Below are positions 2,902 through 9,740 of a stretch of DNA of 32,664 nt, piece by piece. How positions within the stretch are numbered: position 1 is the first letter of the stretch; each line of letters opens with the position of its first letter. Below the pieces are notes generated by a model. That model did no database searches. It was not told the origin of the DNA and saw only the letters and a program-made list of their open reading frames with translations. Made by a program: the position numbers and the translations under genes. This DNA comes from Methanothrix sp. (GTDB taxonomy: Archaea; Halobacteriota; Methanosarcinia; Methanotrichales; Methanotrichaceae): the NCBI GenBank assembly GCA_030372945.1, contig JAUCQD010000139.1, positions 1 through 32,664 of the forward strand, written 5' to 3'.

Positions 2902-4065
2902 TTAAGATCCCCAATATTTTAAGGCTGTTTCGAGCTCTTTGTGATCTTTTGCGTATTCCTGAAGTGGGATTTTCTTCTGCCATGCCTCCACTGCCTGAAC
3001 CATGGCCCTGGCTCCGGCTGCAGTTCCGTCTGGATGGCCATGGACTCCTCCGCCTGCCTGGACTATGCAGTCTATGCCATAGCCGTCCAGGTTTCCGTGC
3101 ACCTTCGCAGGATAAATTCCGCCAGAAGCCACTGGGAAGACTCTCTTCAGGCCATGCCACTCATCTCGTAGCGCGTCTCTGGACATATCGTTCTCCTGCG
3201 TCTCTTTGGCCATCTTTCCCATGTAGCTTCCAGTATGCAGGTTGGTGCCCCCAGCCATGCGCACAAGCCTGGATATCACCACCATGGAGATGCCGTGCGC
3301 CTTGTCCCTGGTGAATGCGCCATGCATGGTCCTGTGAACATGCACGGGCACTTTCACATTTCGAGATAGCACTTCCAGGGCGGAAAAGCCTGCGGTGAGC
3401 ACGTCGATCATGACCATGTTTGCACCGTGGTCCACTGCTTCCTCGGCGCGCTCTAAAATCTGGTCCCCGCCAGTTGTGACGTTCACAGCATAAAATGCCT
3501 TCTTGCCTGTCTCCTTCTCAACCCTGTCAAGAGAGCTCATGACAGCCTCCAGCCTCGGGATAAGGGGGCAGAAGCTCTGATTGGTCAGGGTTTCATCATC
3601 CTTCACCAGGTCCAGGCCACCGAGAACTGCCTCTTTTGCCACGCGGGCGGTGCCCTTGGGGTCCAGCCCCACCTTGGGCTTGACGATCGTCCCGACCAAT
3701 GGTCGGTCGTAGACCCCCAGGATCCTTCTTGCGTCCTCCATGCCGAACCGCGGGCCCTTGTGCGCCCGCATCAGACTTTCGGGAAAGATGACATCTTGCA
3801 GGCGGACTTTTTTCAAAGCACCCAGGCCAAAGAGATTTCCCGCAACAACAGAGAGATATTGAGGGATGTTTCCAGGCTCAAAGAGCTCCTCTGGGAAACC
3901 AATCTCAACATCTGTCCCTTCTGCACGGATCACCCGGGCAGCCAGGGGGTTGTCTGAGCCTCGCACCTCGGTCCAGGTGCCAGTGGACTGCTCGGCAGCG
4001 ATGGCCTCGGCGGCCTTCGCGATGGGAAGGTCGGTTTCAACGTGATACTTCGCGATTAGTTCCAT
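2902..4065 (-). CDS. rbcL: Ribulose-1,5-bisphosphate carboxylase large subunit, type III-like
   Basis: 387 aa; GTIVKPKVGL, GGLDLVKDDETLTNQSF (carbamylated Lys motif), HRTMHGAF, GTNLHTGSYMGKM (loop 6 Lys), PVASGGI and QAGGGVHGHPDG all present. Confidence 0.92.
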   Translation of the reverse strand: MELIAKYHVETDLPIAKAAEAIAAEQSTGTWTEVRGSDNPLAARVIRAEGTDVEIGFPEELFEPGNIPQYLSVVAGNLFGLGALKKVRLQDVIFPESLMRAHKGPRFGMEDARRILGVYDRPLVGTIVKPKVGLDPKGTARVAKEAVLGGLDLVKDDETLTNQSFCPLIPRLEAVMSSLDRVEKETGKKAFYAVNVTTGGDQILERAEEAVDHGANMVMIDVLTAGFSALEVLSRNVKVPVHVHRTMHGAFTRDKAHGISMVVISRLVRMAGGTNLHTGSYMGKMAKETQENDMSRDALRDEWHGLKRVFPVASGGIYPAKVHGNLDGYGIDCIVQAGGGVHGHPDGTAAGARAMVQAVEAWQKKIPLQEYAKDHKELETALKYWGS

Positions 4066-4226: not shown

Positions 4227-4299
4227 TTATCAGTAAGTAAATATAAGACCTCGCACAAGGCTTCTAAAGTTATCTGTTCGATCAGGGTAGGGATTCGAA

Positions 4300-6318
4300 T
4301 TGAGCTGTGATCCATACGTAGATAGGATAAAAGATATGTTTTGTAAGCCTAATCAAGTGAGGTTGGAAAATATTCGAACAATTATTAAAAAAGAATGGGC
4401 AGATTCTACAACTGAGACATATCCATATACACCCCATGATGTCACTCACTGTAAAAAAGTTGAAGAGTTGCTCATTGAGCTAATCCCTGCGGATAGAATG
4501 AAAGATTTATTATCAGAAGAAGAGAGATTTCTGCTTATTGCTTCAGCATGGCTGCATGATATAGGAATGAATCCCGATTTATATAGAGATAAAAAGGATT
4601 CAAACGTACGCAATAAAGAAAAACTAGCAAAATGGAATAAGTCCGTACGGGATACGCATGCAGAAAGATCTGCTAGATATGTAGAAGACAAAAAAGGAGA
4701 ATTGAATTTAACGGATGATGAGTGCGACATTATTAAAAAGATGTGCTTGCTTCATAGGCAGAAAACATATAAAGAATTAGAGCAACAACCATGGGAAATA
4801 TCGACTATAAGAGTCCAATTATTAATAGCATATCTAAGACTTGCCGATGCCCTTCATATACCCCGTAAAGATGATCGAGAGTTTAAAACGTTTATGGCCC
4901 TAGGGCTAGATCCTGTATCCAGGTTGCATTGGTTTAAATCAAGATATGTTAACCAAGTAATAATTCATCCAGATAAATTCACAATAGTCATCGTTCTTAG
5001 AAAGCCAGATCCAGCAATATACCCTGAGAAATGGGATGAAAAATTAAAGCCTCTAAAAGAGATGCTAACGAGAATCGTTTATGATGAACTGGATCCAATC
5101 AAAGATATTCTGGCTAAAGGCGGTGTATCGGTTTATTTATCGATAGAATTGCGATCTGAAATTGATGCAACAATGTCAGAAAGCAACGTGCAAGAGCTCA
5201 AAGAATTGCTAAATAATATGGAACTGTTGGATACTACACTAACCCCAAATGCAGGCTCAGTTATTGGGACAGTACTAAAGCAAATCGAATTGTTTATTGA
5301 TATCGCTAGTCCAGAGATTAGCATAGAATATTTGAAGGATTATGATGAAAATATCTTAAAAGACATTGTTGAAAGGCGGCCTTGTCATGTATTTCTCTGG
5401 AAAGTTAAGAGGATGCTCGAAGATAAGATCAAGTCTAAAGAAAGTGCAGGAAAGGAAAAAGACACTATATTATCCATTCAGGAGACAATTAACTGTTGGA
5501 AAAGTAAAAGGCATCAAGCTATCAGCGAATTGACCAAGACTGCTTACCATTCAATCCTAAAAGATGGATTGACAATACTGGTTTATGGATATAGTGATAC
5601 CATCGTCGAATGTATAGATTACTATTTAACAGAAAAGAACAATTTGGACATATATATTTGTGAAGGTAGAACAAAGACGGAATATAGATACAATAACAGA
5701 TTAATTTATAGCGACGGATTAAAATATGCTGAAAGATTTAAAGAAGTGGAGAGAAAGAATAATGACAAAGTAAAAAGAGATATATTAGAAATCATGAGAC
5801 ATAAATACAATATGGATGAAACAAGTCTCGATGAAGAATTAAAGAATTGTGACGGAGAAATTAGGAAGGAATTCGATGAAGAAATGGAGAGAAGAGAGAA
5901 GAAATTAAAGCTATATTACGTGGCAGATTCTTGTGTTTCGAACTTATTTTCAAGAGAAATTGCCAAAAAAGTACTGTTTGGTGCAAATGGTATCGGCAAT
6001 AGCGGAATGGTATCACATACTTTAGGCCATTTGGCCATAGCGGATATGGCAAAACTGAATAAAATCCCAGTTTATGTGCTTGCAGAAACTATGAAAGTAG
6101 GTGATTTGCAAGTGAGACGCGAACTACAAAGATCAAACCAGTGGTTGACCACAGATATAAAGTTCGATTACTTAGTATCGGATTTAATTAATTACAATCC
6201 TCGGGAAGATATCATAACACCGGACAAAATTACCGCCTTTATTACGGAAAAGGGATCTATTCAACCGGCAACAGAGATCTGGAGATATAAGGATGATGAA
6301 TGTTATGCTTTGTCATGA
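4300..6318 (+). CDS. HD-domain phosphohydrolase fused to a C-terminal eIF2B/R15P-isomerase-like (IF-2B fold) domain
   Basis: 672 aa, TTG start. N-term: PHDVTHCKKVEELL, ASAWLHDIGM, CLLHRQK, LRLADALHIPR (H...HD...H...D). C-term: RRPCHVFLWKVKRML (IF2B helical region), LTILVYGYSDTIVECI, IYICEGR, VLFGANGIGNSGMVSHTLGHLAIADMAKLNKIPVYVLAETMK, YNPREDIITPDKITAFITEKGSIQP. Confidence 0.85.
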   Translation: MSCDPYVDRIKDMFCKPNQVRLENIRTIIKKEWADSTTETYPYTPHDVTHCKKVEELLIELIPADRMKDLLSEEERFLLIASAWLHDIGMNPDLYRDKKDSNVRNKEKLAKWNKSVRDTHAERSARYVEDKKGELNLTDDECDIIKKMCLLHRQKTYKELEQQPWEISTIRVQLLIAYLRLADALHIPRKDDREFKTFMALGLDPVSRLHWFKSRYVNQVIIHPDKFTIVIVLRKPDPAIYPEKWDEKLKPLKEMLTRIVYDELDPIKDILAKGGVSVYLSIELRSEIDATMSESNVQELKELLNNMELLDTTLTPNAGSVIGTVLKQIELFIDIASPEISIEYLKDYDENILKDIVERRPCHVFLWKVKRMLEDKIKSKESAGKEKDTILSIQETINCWKSKRHQAISELTKTAYHSILKDGLTILVYGYSDTIVECIDYYLTEKNNLDIYICEGRTKTEYRYNNRLIYSDGLKYAERFKEVERKNNDKVKRDILEIMRHKYNMDETSLDEELKNCDGEIRKEFDEEMERREKKLKLYYVADSCVSNLFSREIAKKVLFGANGIGNSGMVSHTLGHLAIADMAKLNKIPVYVLAETMKVGDLQVRRELQRSNQWLTTDIKFDYLVSDLINYNPREDIITPDKITAFITEKGSIQPATEIWRYKDDECYALS

Positions 6319-6338: not shown

Positions 6339-7454
6339 TTGAATAAAATAACGATCAGCCTAATCAAGGCCGATGTGGGTGGCTTTCCAGGCCACTCCTC
6401 AGTCCATCCCGCATTGATCGAGACCGCTGAGTCGAAGCTTCAAGAAGCCAAGAAGTCAGGCGCACTGATAGACTTTAGGGTGCTCTCCTGCGGCGACGAC
6501 CTGGAGCTGCTGATGAGCCACAAGAAGGGCTGCGACAGCGGCGACATCCATGCCCTGGCCTGGGAGACCTTCGAGGAGGCAACGGAGAAGGCCAAGAAGC
6601 TCAAGCTCTACGGAGCCGGCCAGGACCTGCTTGCGGATGCCTTCAGCGGCAACATCCGGGGAATGGGACCTGGCGTTGCCGAGATGGAGATCAATGAGCG
6701 CACCTCGGAGCCCGTAGTGGCTTTCATGATGGACAAAACTGAACCTGGCGCCTTCAATCTCCCTATCTTCAAGATGTTTGCAGATCCATTCAATACCGCG
6801 GGCCTGGTGATCGACCCTGCCTGCCATCACGGCTTCACCTTCGAGATCTGGGACATAATGGAGCACAAGAGGGTCTTCATGGACTGTCCAGCGGAGATGT
6901 ACGACATGCTGGCGCTGATTGGCGCAAAGAGCAGGTATGTTATCAAGAGGGTCTTTTGCAAGCCTGGCAGCAAGATCTCGGAGCAAGAGCCTGTGGCAGT
7001 TGTGAGCACTGAGAAGCTCTACCAGACTGCAGGAACATACGTTGGCAAAGACGACCCCGTGGCCCTGGTCAGATGCCAGTCGGGCCTCCCTGCGTTGGGA
7101 GAGGTGCTGGAGCCCTTCGCTCTGGGTCATCTGGTCAGCGGATGGATGCGCGGCAGCCACAACGGACCACTGATGCCCTGCTCCTTTGAGACCGCCCATC
7201 CCACGAGGTTTGATGGACCGCCCAGAGTCATTGCAGCAGGCTTCCAGATGGCTCATGGGAGCTTCGTCGGTCCCGCTGACCTGTTCGCAGACGTCGCCTA
7301 CGACCTGGCCCGCAAAAGATGCCTGGAGATCACGGACTATCTGCGTGCGCACGGACCCTTCGAGCCGCAGCGACTGCCCATGGAGGACATGGAGTACACC
7401 ACTCTGCCTCACGTCATGAAGGCTCTGGAGAACAGGTTCGTGAAAGTGGAATAG
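6339..7454 (+). CDS. fbp: Fructose-1,6-bisphosphate aldolase/phosphatase
   Basis: 371 aa; MNKITISLIKADVGGFPGHSSVHP, ACHHGFTFEIWD, RFDGPPRVIAAGFQ typical of archaeal bifunctional FBPA/P. TTG start with GGGGGG upstream. Confidence 0.95.
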   Translation: MNKITISLIKADVGGFPGHSSVHPALIETAESKLQEAKKSGALIDFRVLSCGDDLELLMSHKKGCDSGDIHALAWETFEEATEKAKKLKLYGAGQDLLADAFSGNIRGMGPGVAEMEINERTSEPVVAFMMDKTEPGAFNLPIFKMFADPFNTAGLVIDPACHHGFTFEIWDIMEHKRVFMDCPAEMYDMLALIGAKSRYVIKRVFCKPGSKISEQEPVAVVSTEKLYQTAGTYVGKDDPVALVRCQSGLPALGEVLEPFALGHLVSGWMRGSHNGPLMPCSFETAHPTRFDGPPRVIAAGFQMAHGSFVGPADLFADVAYDLARKRCLEITDYLRAHGPFEPQRLPMEDMEYTTLPHVMKALENRFVKVE

Positions 7455-7461
7455 ATCAAAA

Positions 7462-7492
7462 GGATCCTGCGATCCATTTTTTTTGGTTTTTT
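7462..7492 (+). terminator. Hairpin plus oligo-T terminator after fbp
   Basis: GGATC-CTGC-GATCC stem directly followed by A, T8, GG, T6. Confidence 0.6.
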
Positions 7493-7530
7493 GAATTGTG
7501 TCTTGATCACTCTTCTGGATGGTATGATGA

Positions 7531-7983
7531 ATGGTTGGCAATGTAAATGTCGAGGCAGAGATGAAAGAGCAAAAGAAGCGCCGCCGCCTGAAGGTAGCCC
7601 ATCCCGAGCGCTGCATCGGCTGCCTGGGCTGCATGTTCGCATGCAGCAGGACTCGCACAGGCACTGTCTCTCTGCAAAACAGCGCCATCAAGGTCCAGAC
7701 CCAGGGCGGAATTGAAGGCGACTTTCGTGTGGTGGCATGCCGCGGCTGCGATGACGCTCCGTGTGCCAGAGCCTGCCCTGTGGACGCGCTGGAGCAGAGG
7801 CCTGACGGTGCCGTGGTATTTCACAAGGATCTCTGCATAGGATGCGGCAGTTGCGAGAAGGCCTGCTTGGTCGGTGCCATCACCATGGGAAAAGATGCCA
7901 AGCCCATAAAATGCATACACTGCGGAGCGTGCGTTGCCTTCTGTCCGCATGATGTGCTGAGGCTCGAAGAGGTATCTGCGTAG
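7531..7983 (+). CDS. 4Fe-4S ferredoxin-type electron-transfer subunit (four cluster motifs)
   Basis: 150 aa; CIGCLGCMFAC, CRGCDDAPCARACP, CIGCGSCEKAC, CIHCGACVAFCP. Confidence 0.9.
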   Translation: MVGNVNVEAEMKEQKKRRRLKVAHPERCIGCLGCMFACSRTRTGTVSLQNSAIKVQTQGGIEGDFRVVACRGCDDAPCARACPVDALEQRPDGAVVFHKDLCIGCGSCEKACLVGAITMGKDAKPIKCIHCGACVAFCPHDVLRLEEVSA

Positions 7984-7997
7984 GGGGTGTAGAGAAA

Positions 7998-9740
7998 ATG
8001 CTGCGAAAAGTTCTGTACATCGATCTATCCAGTAGAGAGTCCTGGATCGAGGAGAGATTGGATCTCTTCGAAGACTGGATGGGTGGCACTGGTGTTGGAA
8101 TAAAGCTGCTGCAGGAGGAATGTCCCGCAGGCACAGATCCTCTTTCGCCCCAGGCGCCCATAATTCTCAGCATAGGCCCTCTCAATGGGTTCTTTCCCGT
8201 GGCCACCAAGACGGTGGCGACCTTCAAGTCGCCGCTCACAGGAGAGCTGGGCGAGTCCTATGCAGGGGGAAGGCTTTCCCTGGCCCTGAGGTTCGCAGGG
8301 CATGAGGCAGTGGTGATCCGCGGCAGGGCAGAGCGGCCTGCGTATATCTCCATCAACGACGCAGACGTCAAGGTCAAGGACGCCACATCGATTTGGGGCA
8401 TTGATGCCCAGACCACAGGGGTGATCCTGCGCGAGCACGAGACTGGCGTTGGCAGGAGGAGCATAATTCGCATAGGGCCTGCAGGAGAGAAGCTTGTTCG
8501 CTTTGCTGGCGTTGTCGTGGACACATACAGGCACTTCGGACGCCTGGGCCTTGGCGCAGTCTTTGGCTCGAAGATGCTCAAGGCGCTTGTGGTCTCAGGG
8601 ACGGAGCACGCCGATGTCCCCGACGCCAGGAGGTATCGTGAGGTTTACAGCAGACTTTACAGCACCGTTGTGAAGACTGATGTGATGGAAAAGTATCACG
8701 ATATCGGAACATCTGTAAACATCAATGTGCTCAACTGGCTAAAAGGCCTGCCTACCAAGAACTTCCTTCTATCCAGCTTCTCCGAAGGCGAGAAGATCAG
8801 CGGCGAGATGTTTGCGGACAACTACCTCTTCCGCCGTCTCTCCTGTGCTGGGTGTCCAATAGGTTGCGTGCATATCGCAGCTTTAAAGTCTGCCTTCTCG
8901 ACGCACCACGAGTTCGAGCTGAGAAAGGTCTCTTATGACTACGAGCCAATCTATTCCCTGGGCTCAAACCTGGGAGTCTCCACAGCAGAGGGGATACTGA
9001 GGTTGATAGATGTCTGCGAGAGGATGGGGATGGATGTGATGTCCGCTGGTGTGGTCCTCTCCTGGGCCACAGAGGCCATGGAAAGGGGGCTCATCACAAC
9101 AAAGGAGACCCTGGACATACCCTTCCAGTGGAACAATGTAGAGGGCTATTCAAGAGCACTGGAGAGCATCGTCAGGCCTCCTAACGAGTTCTACTCTGCC
9201 CTGGCTATGGGCGTGGATTATGCATCCACGAAATATGGGGGCCGTGAATTCGCGATGGCCCTTGGCAAGAACGAGGTCTCAGGCTACCACACCGGCCCCG
9301 CATCGATCGTGGGCCAGCTCGTGGGCGTGCGGCACTCACACCTGGACAACGCCGGATACAGCATCGACCAGAAGGCTGCCAAGAGATCGATGGATCCTGA
9401 GATGATGGTGGACGAGATCATCAAGGAGGACAACAGTCGCGGGGTATTCAACAGCCTTGTGGGATGTCTATTTGCCCGTGGAGTCTACACTGAGGAGAAT
9501 ATCATCGATGCCCTGGGAGCTGTCGGCATCACAAAGACGAAGGACGACCTGCAAAGCCTTGGAAGGAGGATCTTCGAAGAGAAATATAAATTCAAAATTC
9601 AGGAGGGGTTTGACCTTTCGCATGCGCATATTCCCAAGAGGTTCTACGAGACCGTATCCACCCTTGGAATTGTAGCGCCAGAGACCGTGGAGGAGATGCT
9701 GCGACAGTACAAGAAGAAGAGAGGATGGGAGCCGGGCTAA
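7998..9740 (+). CDS. Aldehyde ferredoxin oxidoreductase family (tungsto-/molybdopterin) enzyme
   Basis: 580 aa; MLRKVLYIDLSS, GGTGVGIKLL, SIGPLNG, KSPLTGELGESYAGG, RIGPAGE, GRLGLGAVFGSKMLKALVVSG, CAGCPIGC and a later Cys (LVGCLF) for the 4Fe-4S cluster. Confidence 0.92.
   Translation: MLRKVLYIDLSSRESWIEERLDLFEDWMGGTGVGIKLLQEECPAGTDPLSPQAPIILSIGPLNGFFPVATKTVATFKSPLTGELGESYAGGRLSLALRFAGHEAVVIRGRAERPAYISINDADVKVKDATSIWGIDAQTTGVILREHETGVGRRSIIRIGPAGEKLVRFAGVVVDTYRHFGRLGLGAVFGSKMLKALVVSGTEHADVPDARRYREVYSRLYSTVVKTDVMEKYHDIGTSVNINVLNWLKGLPTKNFLLSSFSEGEKISGEMFADNYLFRRLSCAGCPIGCVHIAALKSAFSTHHEFELRKVSYDYEPIYSLGSNLGVSTAEGILRLIDVCERMGMDVMSAGVVLSWATEAMERGLITTKETLDIPFQWNNVEGYSRALESIVRPPNEFYSALAMGVDYASTKYGGREFAMALGKNEVSGYHTGPASIVGQLVGVRHSHLDNAGYSIDQKAAKRSMDPEMMVDEIIKEDNSRGVFNSLVGCLFARGVYTEENIIDALGAVGITKTKDDLQSLGRRIFEEKYKFKIQEGFDLSHAHIPKRFYETVSTLGIVAPETVEEMLRQYKKKRGWEPG

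Follow-up and report, generated by a model that had tools for sequence, protein, structure and literature searches.

What does a protein do that joins an HD-type metal-dependent domain to the fold of a sugar-phosphate isomerase, and whose gene lies back to back with that for RuBisCO? The question is raised by contig JAUCQD010000139.1 of a Methanothrix sp. assembly (GCA_030372945.1), of which positions 1 to 32,664 form the stretch analyzed here and called the window. The fusion gene occupies positions 4300-6318 of the forward strand and encodes 672 amino acids from a TTG start, with an in-frame ATG at 4336 as an alternative start; from the TTG, the 672 codons run without interruption. Because nine other genomes encode the same fusion in a single uninterrupted frame, an assembly chimera is ruled out. 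The preliminary description of this locus, made from the letters alone, had proposed an HD domain fused to an eIF2B/R15P-isomerase-like domain, and this architecture is borne out by Pfam matches, by both predicted folds, and by the recurrence of the single frame. The AlphaFold model of the whole protein, for which seven family members served as input, has a pLDDT of 77.8 and a pTM of 0.69. A charged helical insertion at residues ~484-532 (5749-5895, +) is absent from close relatives in the alignment. Pfam finds no P-loop domain in the protein, which thereby lacks the pairing of STAND NTPase and repeat sensor that characterizes NLR-like STAND proteins. At the fusion locus no structured RNA was found, and a scan for sigma-70-type promoters, a model not apt for archaea, returned fewer sites than did shuffled sequences.

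Residues 43-228 (4426-4983, +) match the HD-CE domain of Pfam family PF24391 with an E-value of 1.5e-24 and a score of 87.5 bits, exceeding the curated cut-off of 27 and upholding the assignment to HD-CE suggested in the preliminary description. The AlphaFold (AF2) model of residues 1-300 (pLDDT 84.1, pTM 0.85) is HD-like. Its nearest solved structure by Foldseek is the HD-like domain of GppA/PPX, a weak match (E 1e-4), followed at weaker E-values by cyclic-nucleotide phosphodiesterases, HD-GYP, and PgpH. Across ten aligned family sequences, all six candidates of an H..HD..H..H..D pattern are kept. These are H50 (4447-4449), the first metal ligand candidate; the HD pair, H86-D87 (4555-4560); two additional ligand candidates, H120 (4657-4659) and H152 (4753-4755); and the last candidate, D183 (4846-4848), all on the forward strand. 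The HD-like model and the invariant ligand candidates agree on a metal-binding HD pocket in this half. The preliminary description had recognized the metal motif correctly and yet understated it, as both H120 and H152 are among the invariant ligand candidates. A review of the HD superfamily assigns extra histidines between the HD pair and the last Asp to the second metal in YqeK, HD-GYP, PgpH, and Cas3 (PMC8177086); given such extra histidines, the HD-CE half is expected to be a bimetallic hydrolase. The HD regions of three relatives (L021, L022, and L027) weakly match parts of the PADLOC model RT_UG24, which suggests that UG24 reverse transcriptases carry an HD-CE-like domain. Another locus (L019, positions 395-2200) encodes an unusual pairing, HD-CE with an S-layer domain behind it, in a single 602-residue open frame.

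In the C-terminal half, the Pfam IF-2B model PF01008 matches residues 533-656 (E 6.3e-22; 78.5 bits against a cut-off of 22.4), while model secondary structure, Foldseek, and hmmsearch together delimit a complete eIF2B/R15P-isomerase-like fold at residues ~294-660 (5179-6279, +). By the secondary structure of the model, this fold consists of a helical part, ~294-420, and a Rossmann-like part, ~424-660. Foldseek aligns the whole model to R15P isomerase 3a9c_B over about 390 columns (E 2.6e-11) and to 5yft_A with a TM-score of 0.73 normalized to the target, and hmmsearch finds R15Pi at E 3.8e-14. Subunits of eIF2B are also among the structures that the model matches over this length. Among solved structures, archaeal R15P isomerase stands closest to this half; a library of viral structures yielded nothing at E below 0.001 for the model. 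The full IF-2B region announced in the preliminary description is therefore present, as AlphaFold model and Foldseek match agree. The "middle segment" set apart there is not a separate unit, since a match over some 390 columns makes it the N-terminal helical part of the complete fold.

Residue equivalences for the pocket were taken from alignments to human eIF2B-alpha and to R15P isomerases of known structure, and conservation was counted over ten members. G430 (5587-5589, +), Gly in nine members and Ala in one, stands where R15P isomerase has its catalytic Cys (A129 in eIF2B-alpha), and N563 (5986-5988, +), Asn in all ten, stands where the isomerase has its catalytic Asp (E198 in eIF2B-alpha), an exchange also present in the Pyrococcus horikoshii D204N mutant enzyme (5yft). 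The catalytic pair of R15P isomerase and MtnA is thus missing, and the NCBIfam isomerase models score far under cut-off (39.9 against 314 bits). In eIF2B-alpha, whose pocket binds sugar phosphates including F6P, the ligand is contacted by G196, A129, Y130, E198, N208, R132, and K234 (PMC8187479). Here Y130, G196, and the phosphate-contacting K234 are kept as Y431, G561, and K599 (6094-6096, +), the sugar-contacting N208 becomes H573 (6016-6018, +), and R132 corresponds to a variable residue. Y431, N563, H573, and K599 are invariant in all ten members, and from the sensor contact set E198, N208, R132, and K234 the K234 equivalent alone is retained. With its catalytic residues replaced and a different set of pocket residues conserved, the domain does not look like an enzyme of R15P metabolism. 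The alignments point to a pocket that is retained and rebuilt, as would fit a ligand sensor with a specificity of its own rather than an isomerase.

The large subunit of form III RuBisCO lies on the reverse strand at 2902-4065 (PF00016 E 4.9e-79; rubisco_III E 1.1e-118), divergent from the fusion gene just as first described. Absent from the earlier account is an FBP aldolase/phosphatase gene (FBPA/P; PF01950 E 2.8e-181, NCBIfam FBP_aldo_phos) at 6339-7454 on the forward strand, 20 nt 3' of the fusion gene. In Methanothrix, RuBisCO and FBPA/P form a divergent pair, and in eight genomes that lack the fusion gene just 133-253 bp separate them; RuBisCO, found in 19 of 26 Methanothrix genomes, is a fixed neighbor and lies outside the module. 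In three other genomes (loci L055, L061, and L066) we noted, by reading and with no profile search, genes resembling class-I FBPase and FBP aldolase inside the RuBisCO-FBPA/P gap, a second way in which this locus is laid out. An HD-CE::eIF2B gene occupies that gap only in the window genome and in one sister genome, G063. Proteins encoded on either side are 93-100% identical between the two genomes; the two copies themselves are 31% identical and oppositely oriented, the window copy being co-directional with FBPA/P and the sister copy with RuBisCO, at a distance of 68 nt. The window gene has a GC content of 35.3% (GC3 31.6%) against 56-58% for its flanking genes, and the sister copy has 35.1%. 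Upstream of the fusion gene, AAGTAAATATAAGACCT (4235-4251, +) shows a weak local resemblance to the sequence between the two genes in gene-free genomes and is a candidate remnant of the shared RuBisCO/FBPA-P promoter, so that the fusion gene may possibly have come to lie between this old promoter and FBPA/P.

Outside Methanothrix, neighbors read by eye include a KefB-like antiporter, hemB, purine-salvage-like genes, and others, with no RuBisCO in the flanks read. Judged by gene-free sister sites, foreign GC, and family members elsewhere that lack a RuBisCO neighbor, the window gene is a horizontally acquired accessory insertion of foreign composition, and its link to RuBisCO is probably positional. 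The presence of two members at one gap would be accounted for by a preferred site, by replacement of an older copy, or by a real metabolic link. RuBP in Methanothrix is made via phosphoribulokinase (PMC5241800), although the window genome also encodes two full-length IF-2B family genes. The idea that the fusion regulates nucleotide or RuBP salvage in connection with RuBisCO consequently found no support: the Cys and Asp are lost, sister sites are gene-free, members elsewhere lack RuBisCO, the GC content is foreign, and RuBP has its phosphoribulokinase route. A RuBisCO/R15P-salvage enzyme was rejected on the replaced catalytic residues and the gene-free sites. RuBisCO itself is interrupted in two other genomes of the genus, with a frame change and stops in L066 (genome G029) and a partial match containing a stop in L051 (genome G069), which suggests RuBisCO loss in some Methanothrix.

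Twelve loci encode the HD-CE::eIF2B architecture. Besides the window gene, they belong to Halobacteriota (L022 and L023, Methanosarcinales, Methanosaeta sp. PtaB.Bin018; L107 and L108), Zixibacteria (L021 and L109), SAR324 (L024), Acidobacteria (L027), and Bacillota (L025, L026, and L110). Two of the twelve are interrupted. In L107 (genome G214), the fusion gene at 6623-8593 has a single in-frame TGA just 5' of the codon for the H152-equivalent histidine. In L025, from the complete genome of Ca. Formimonas, a frameshift at a run of eight C (~8880-8910) separates the HD and eIF2B-like halves, and could be phase variation, decay, or sequencing error. Near full-length matches, counted with the seed genomes included, occur in 3 of 397 sampled Halobacteriota and, in other sampled sets, in 2 of 134, 2 of 75, 1 of 347, and 1 of 52 genomes. 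The distribution is patchy, with an incidence of about 3% or less across the sampled phyla and orders, and 51 plus 43 further related genomes added no member beyond the seed genomes. In a phylogenetic tree, the window copy clusters with the Zixibacteria and PtaB.Bin018 copies, and the two Methanothrix copies are not mutual sisters, although that fork is supported at only 84/86. No family match was found in plasmids, phages, or viral contigs, and a mobile-element or phage gene was rejected on that ground.

Company of another kind is kept by the HD-CE domain and by some family members. Loci L005, L006, L020, L071, and L073, from the same class and phylum, encode NB-ARC/nSTAND/NACHT-TPR proteins whose N-terminal module is HD-CE. 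The N-terminal position of NLR-like STAND proteins is usually that of the effector. By this comparison, the eIF2B-like domain of the fusion would occupy the sensor slot. The sister homolog of G063 (L023) has Trypsin_2 at the N-terminus of the same protein and an adjoining Trypco1 gene; Trypco1 and trypsin have been described as components that occur together in NTP-dependent conflict systems (PMC7159879). By eye, the trypsin-like domain (L023, 7200-7800) keeps the GxSGxP motif but reads ILTCGYII at the place where a His is expected in active relatives, so that its catalytic His seems to be replaced by Tyr. Neither a trypsin-like domain nor Trypco1 is present at the window locus. In L107, a TIR/ThsB-like gene (8594-9442) follows the fusion gene with zero gap, and in L022 the fusion gene is preceded by a gene for an nSTAND3-like NTPase that scores under the nSTAND3 family cut-off. 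Conflict-type neighbors are few and mixed, and the majority of family members are solitary. The window protein had no match in PADLOC 2.0 at E up to 10, and a named defence system was rejected accordingly. A search of mainly open-access literature found no paper that describes the HD-CE domain or a protein joining HD to IF-2B.

The reading that we favor, with a probability of about 0.6, is that the fusion protein is a horizontally acquired conflict effector, serving defence or a stress response. It draws on the HD-CE and IF-2B folds, the invariant metal motif, and the remodelled pocket; on the HD-CE proteins of STAND-TPR type and the Trypsin_2/Trypco1, TIR, and nSTAND3-like neighbors; and on foreign GC, gene-free sites in eight genomes, and low incidence. 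The HD-CE domain, a predicted bimetallic phosphohydrolase or phosphodiesterase, would act as the effector, and the eIF2B-like domain, its isomerase chemistry lost, as a ligand-binding and probably oligomerizing sensor. Binding of a small phosphorylated molecule (a sugar phosphate, a nucleotide, or a ribose-phosphate-derived signal) would switch on HD hydrolysis of a nucleotide-type substrate, and this hydrolysis would slow or stop the cell, making the protein a single-gene, metabolite-gated effector. We infer the hydrolase activity, the nature of substrate and ligand, which way the gating runs, and the role in defence. The folds and the metal motif lend support to the earlier proposal of a defence or stress effector that couples recognition of a ligand to hydrolysis by the HD domain. 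Counting against the conflict reading, most members sit among housekeeping genes rather than in defence islands, and two relatives in the same RuBisCO/FBPA-P gap hint at a metabolic tie. The lack of a PADLOC model for the window protein, the absence of the family from the phages, plasmids, and viral contigs searched, and the weakness of the best HD-like structural match, GppA/PPX, also weigh against it. A more specific version, in which evolution has turned the eIF2B/R15P-isomerase fold into a receptor for immune second messengers or metabolites, its non-catalytic pocket reading a ribose-phosphate-derived signal, for example from a TIR partner as in L107, and gating the HD effector, is tentative and less likely than not.

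That hint of a metabolic tie is the core of a different explanation, by which the eIF2B-like domain senses F6P, RuBP, or R15P and the HD domain responds by tuning the level of a second messenger or a nucleotide pool, so that the protein regulates RuBisCO or gluconeogenesis. The pair of members in the gap, each co-directional with one flanking gene, would then make sense, as would F6P binding by eIF2B-alpha (PMC8187479) and the archaeal R15P isomerase as closest solved relative. However, in eight or more Methanothrix genomes RuBisCO and FBPA/P lie side by side with no such gene, homologous loci outside Methanothrix have no RuBisCO neighbor, the catalytic pair is replaced and N208 and R132 of eIF2B-alpha are not kept, the sister copy carries Trypsin_2/Trypco1 modules, and the window gene is foreign in composition; we consider such a regulator unlikely.

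Placing the protein on the other side of a conflict, one may suppose an antitoxin-like, signal-terminating enzyme, whose HD domain breaks down the second messenger that a partner of TIR or cyclase type produces, while the eIF2B-like domain senses the same or a related molecule. The HD ligand pattern, the weak profile and fold likeness to cyclic-nucleotide phosphodiesterases, HD-GYP, and PgpH, and the TIR gene immediately 3' in L107 fit this proposal, but the window copy has no adjoining partner that would make a signal, and HD-CE in STAND proteins stands in the usual effector position, which leaves it less likely still. Least probable is a foreign gene that is neutral or decaying and at present functionless in this host: rarity, AT-richness, insertion between housekeeping genes at a place where relatives have no gene, and the two interrupted relatives would all agree with decay, whereas the window copy is full-length with every family-invariant residue intact, and nine other genomes have intact frames.

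Should the conflict effector be the correct reading, the fusion would be a conflict protein in which HD-CE is joined to a sensor half of a new kind: the eIF2B/sugar-isomerase fold would constitute a new sensor class among such proteins, and a metabolic isomerase fold would have proved convertible into a gate for a hydrolase effector. If the receptor version also held, it would offer a prokaryotic parallel to sugar-phosphate sensing by eIF2B-alpha, built into defence. The pocket residues N563, H573, and K599 are a directly testable target. Few defence systems with experimental support are known from archaea, and the fusion gene is a compact single-gene candidate. Its RuBisCO neighbor is a poor guide to function, in a neighborhood that looks like an insertion site.

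Several known systems lie close to the family. With Thoeris, which pairs the TIR protein ThsB with a nucleotide-sensing effector, it shares the TIR/ThsB-like gene directly 3' of the fusion gene in L107, a single case in which SLOG/ThsA is not seen; the window locus lacks that gene. The Trypsin/Trypco1 modules described for conflict systems that depend on NTP (Kaur et al. 2020, PMC7159879) have their counterparts in Trypsin_2 and Trypco1 at the sister homolog, but their vWA-MoxR-VMAP core is not seen beside it, and the window copy has neither module. Archaeal R15P isomerase and MtnA (PF01008) have the whole fold and the pocket framework in common with the fusion, in which, however, Cys has become Gly, Asp has become Asn, an NKIGT-type motif has become HxxGH, and an HD-CE domain stands in front. 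The sugar-phosphate sensor eIF2B-alpha shares the non-catalytic fold and the equivalents of Y130 and K234, whereas in the fusion E198 is replaced by N563, N208 by H573, and R132 is not conserved, and the translation-factor context is absent. The HD-CE::STAND/NB-ARC/NACHT-TPR proteins have the same N-terminal HD-CE domain with all of its ligand candidates; where they carry a STAND/TPR sensor half, the fusion carries a complete eIF2B-like fold.
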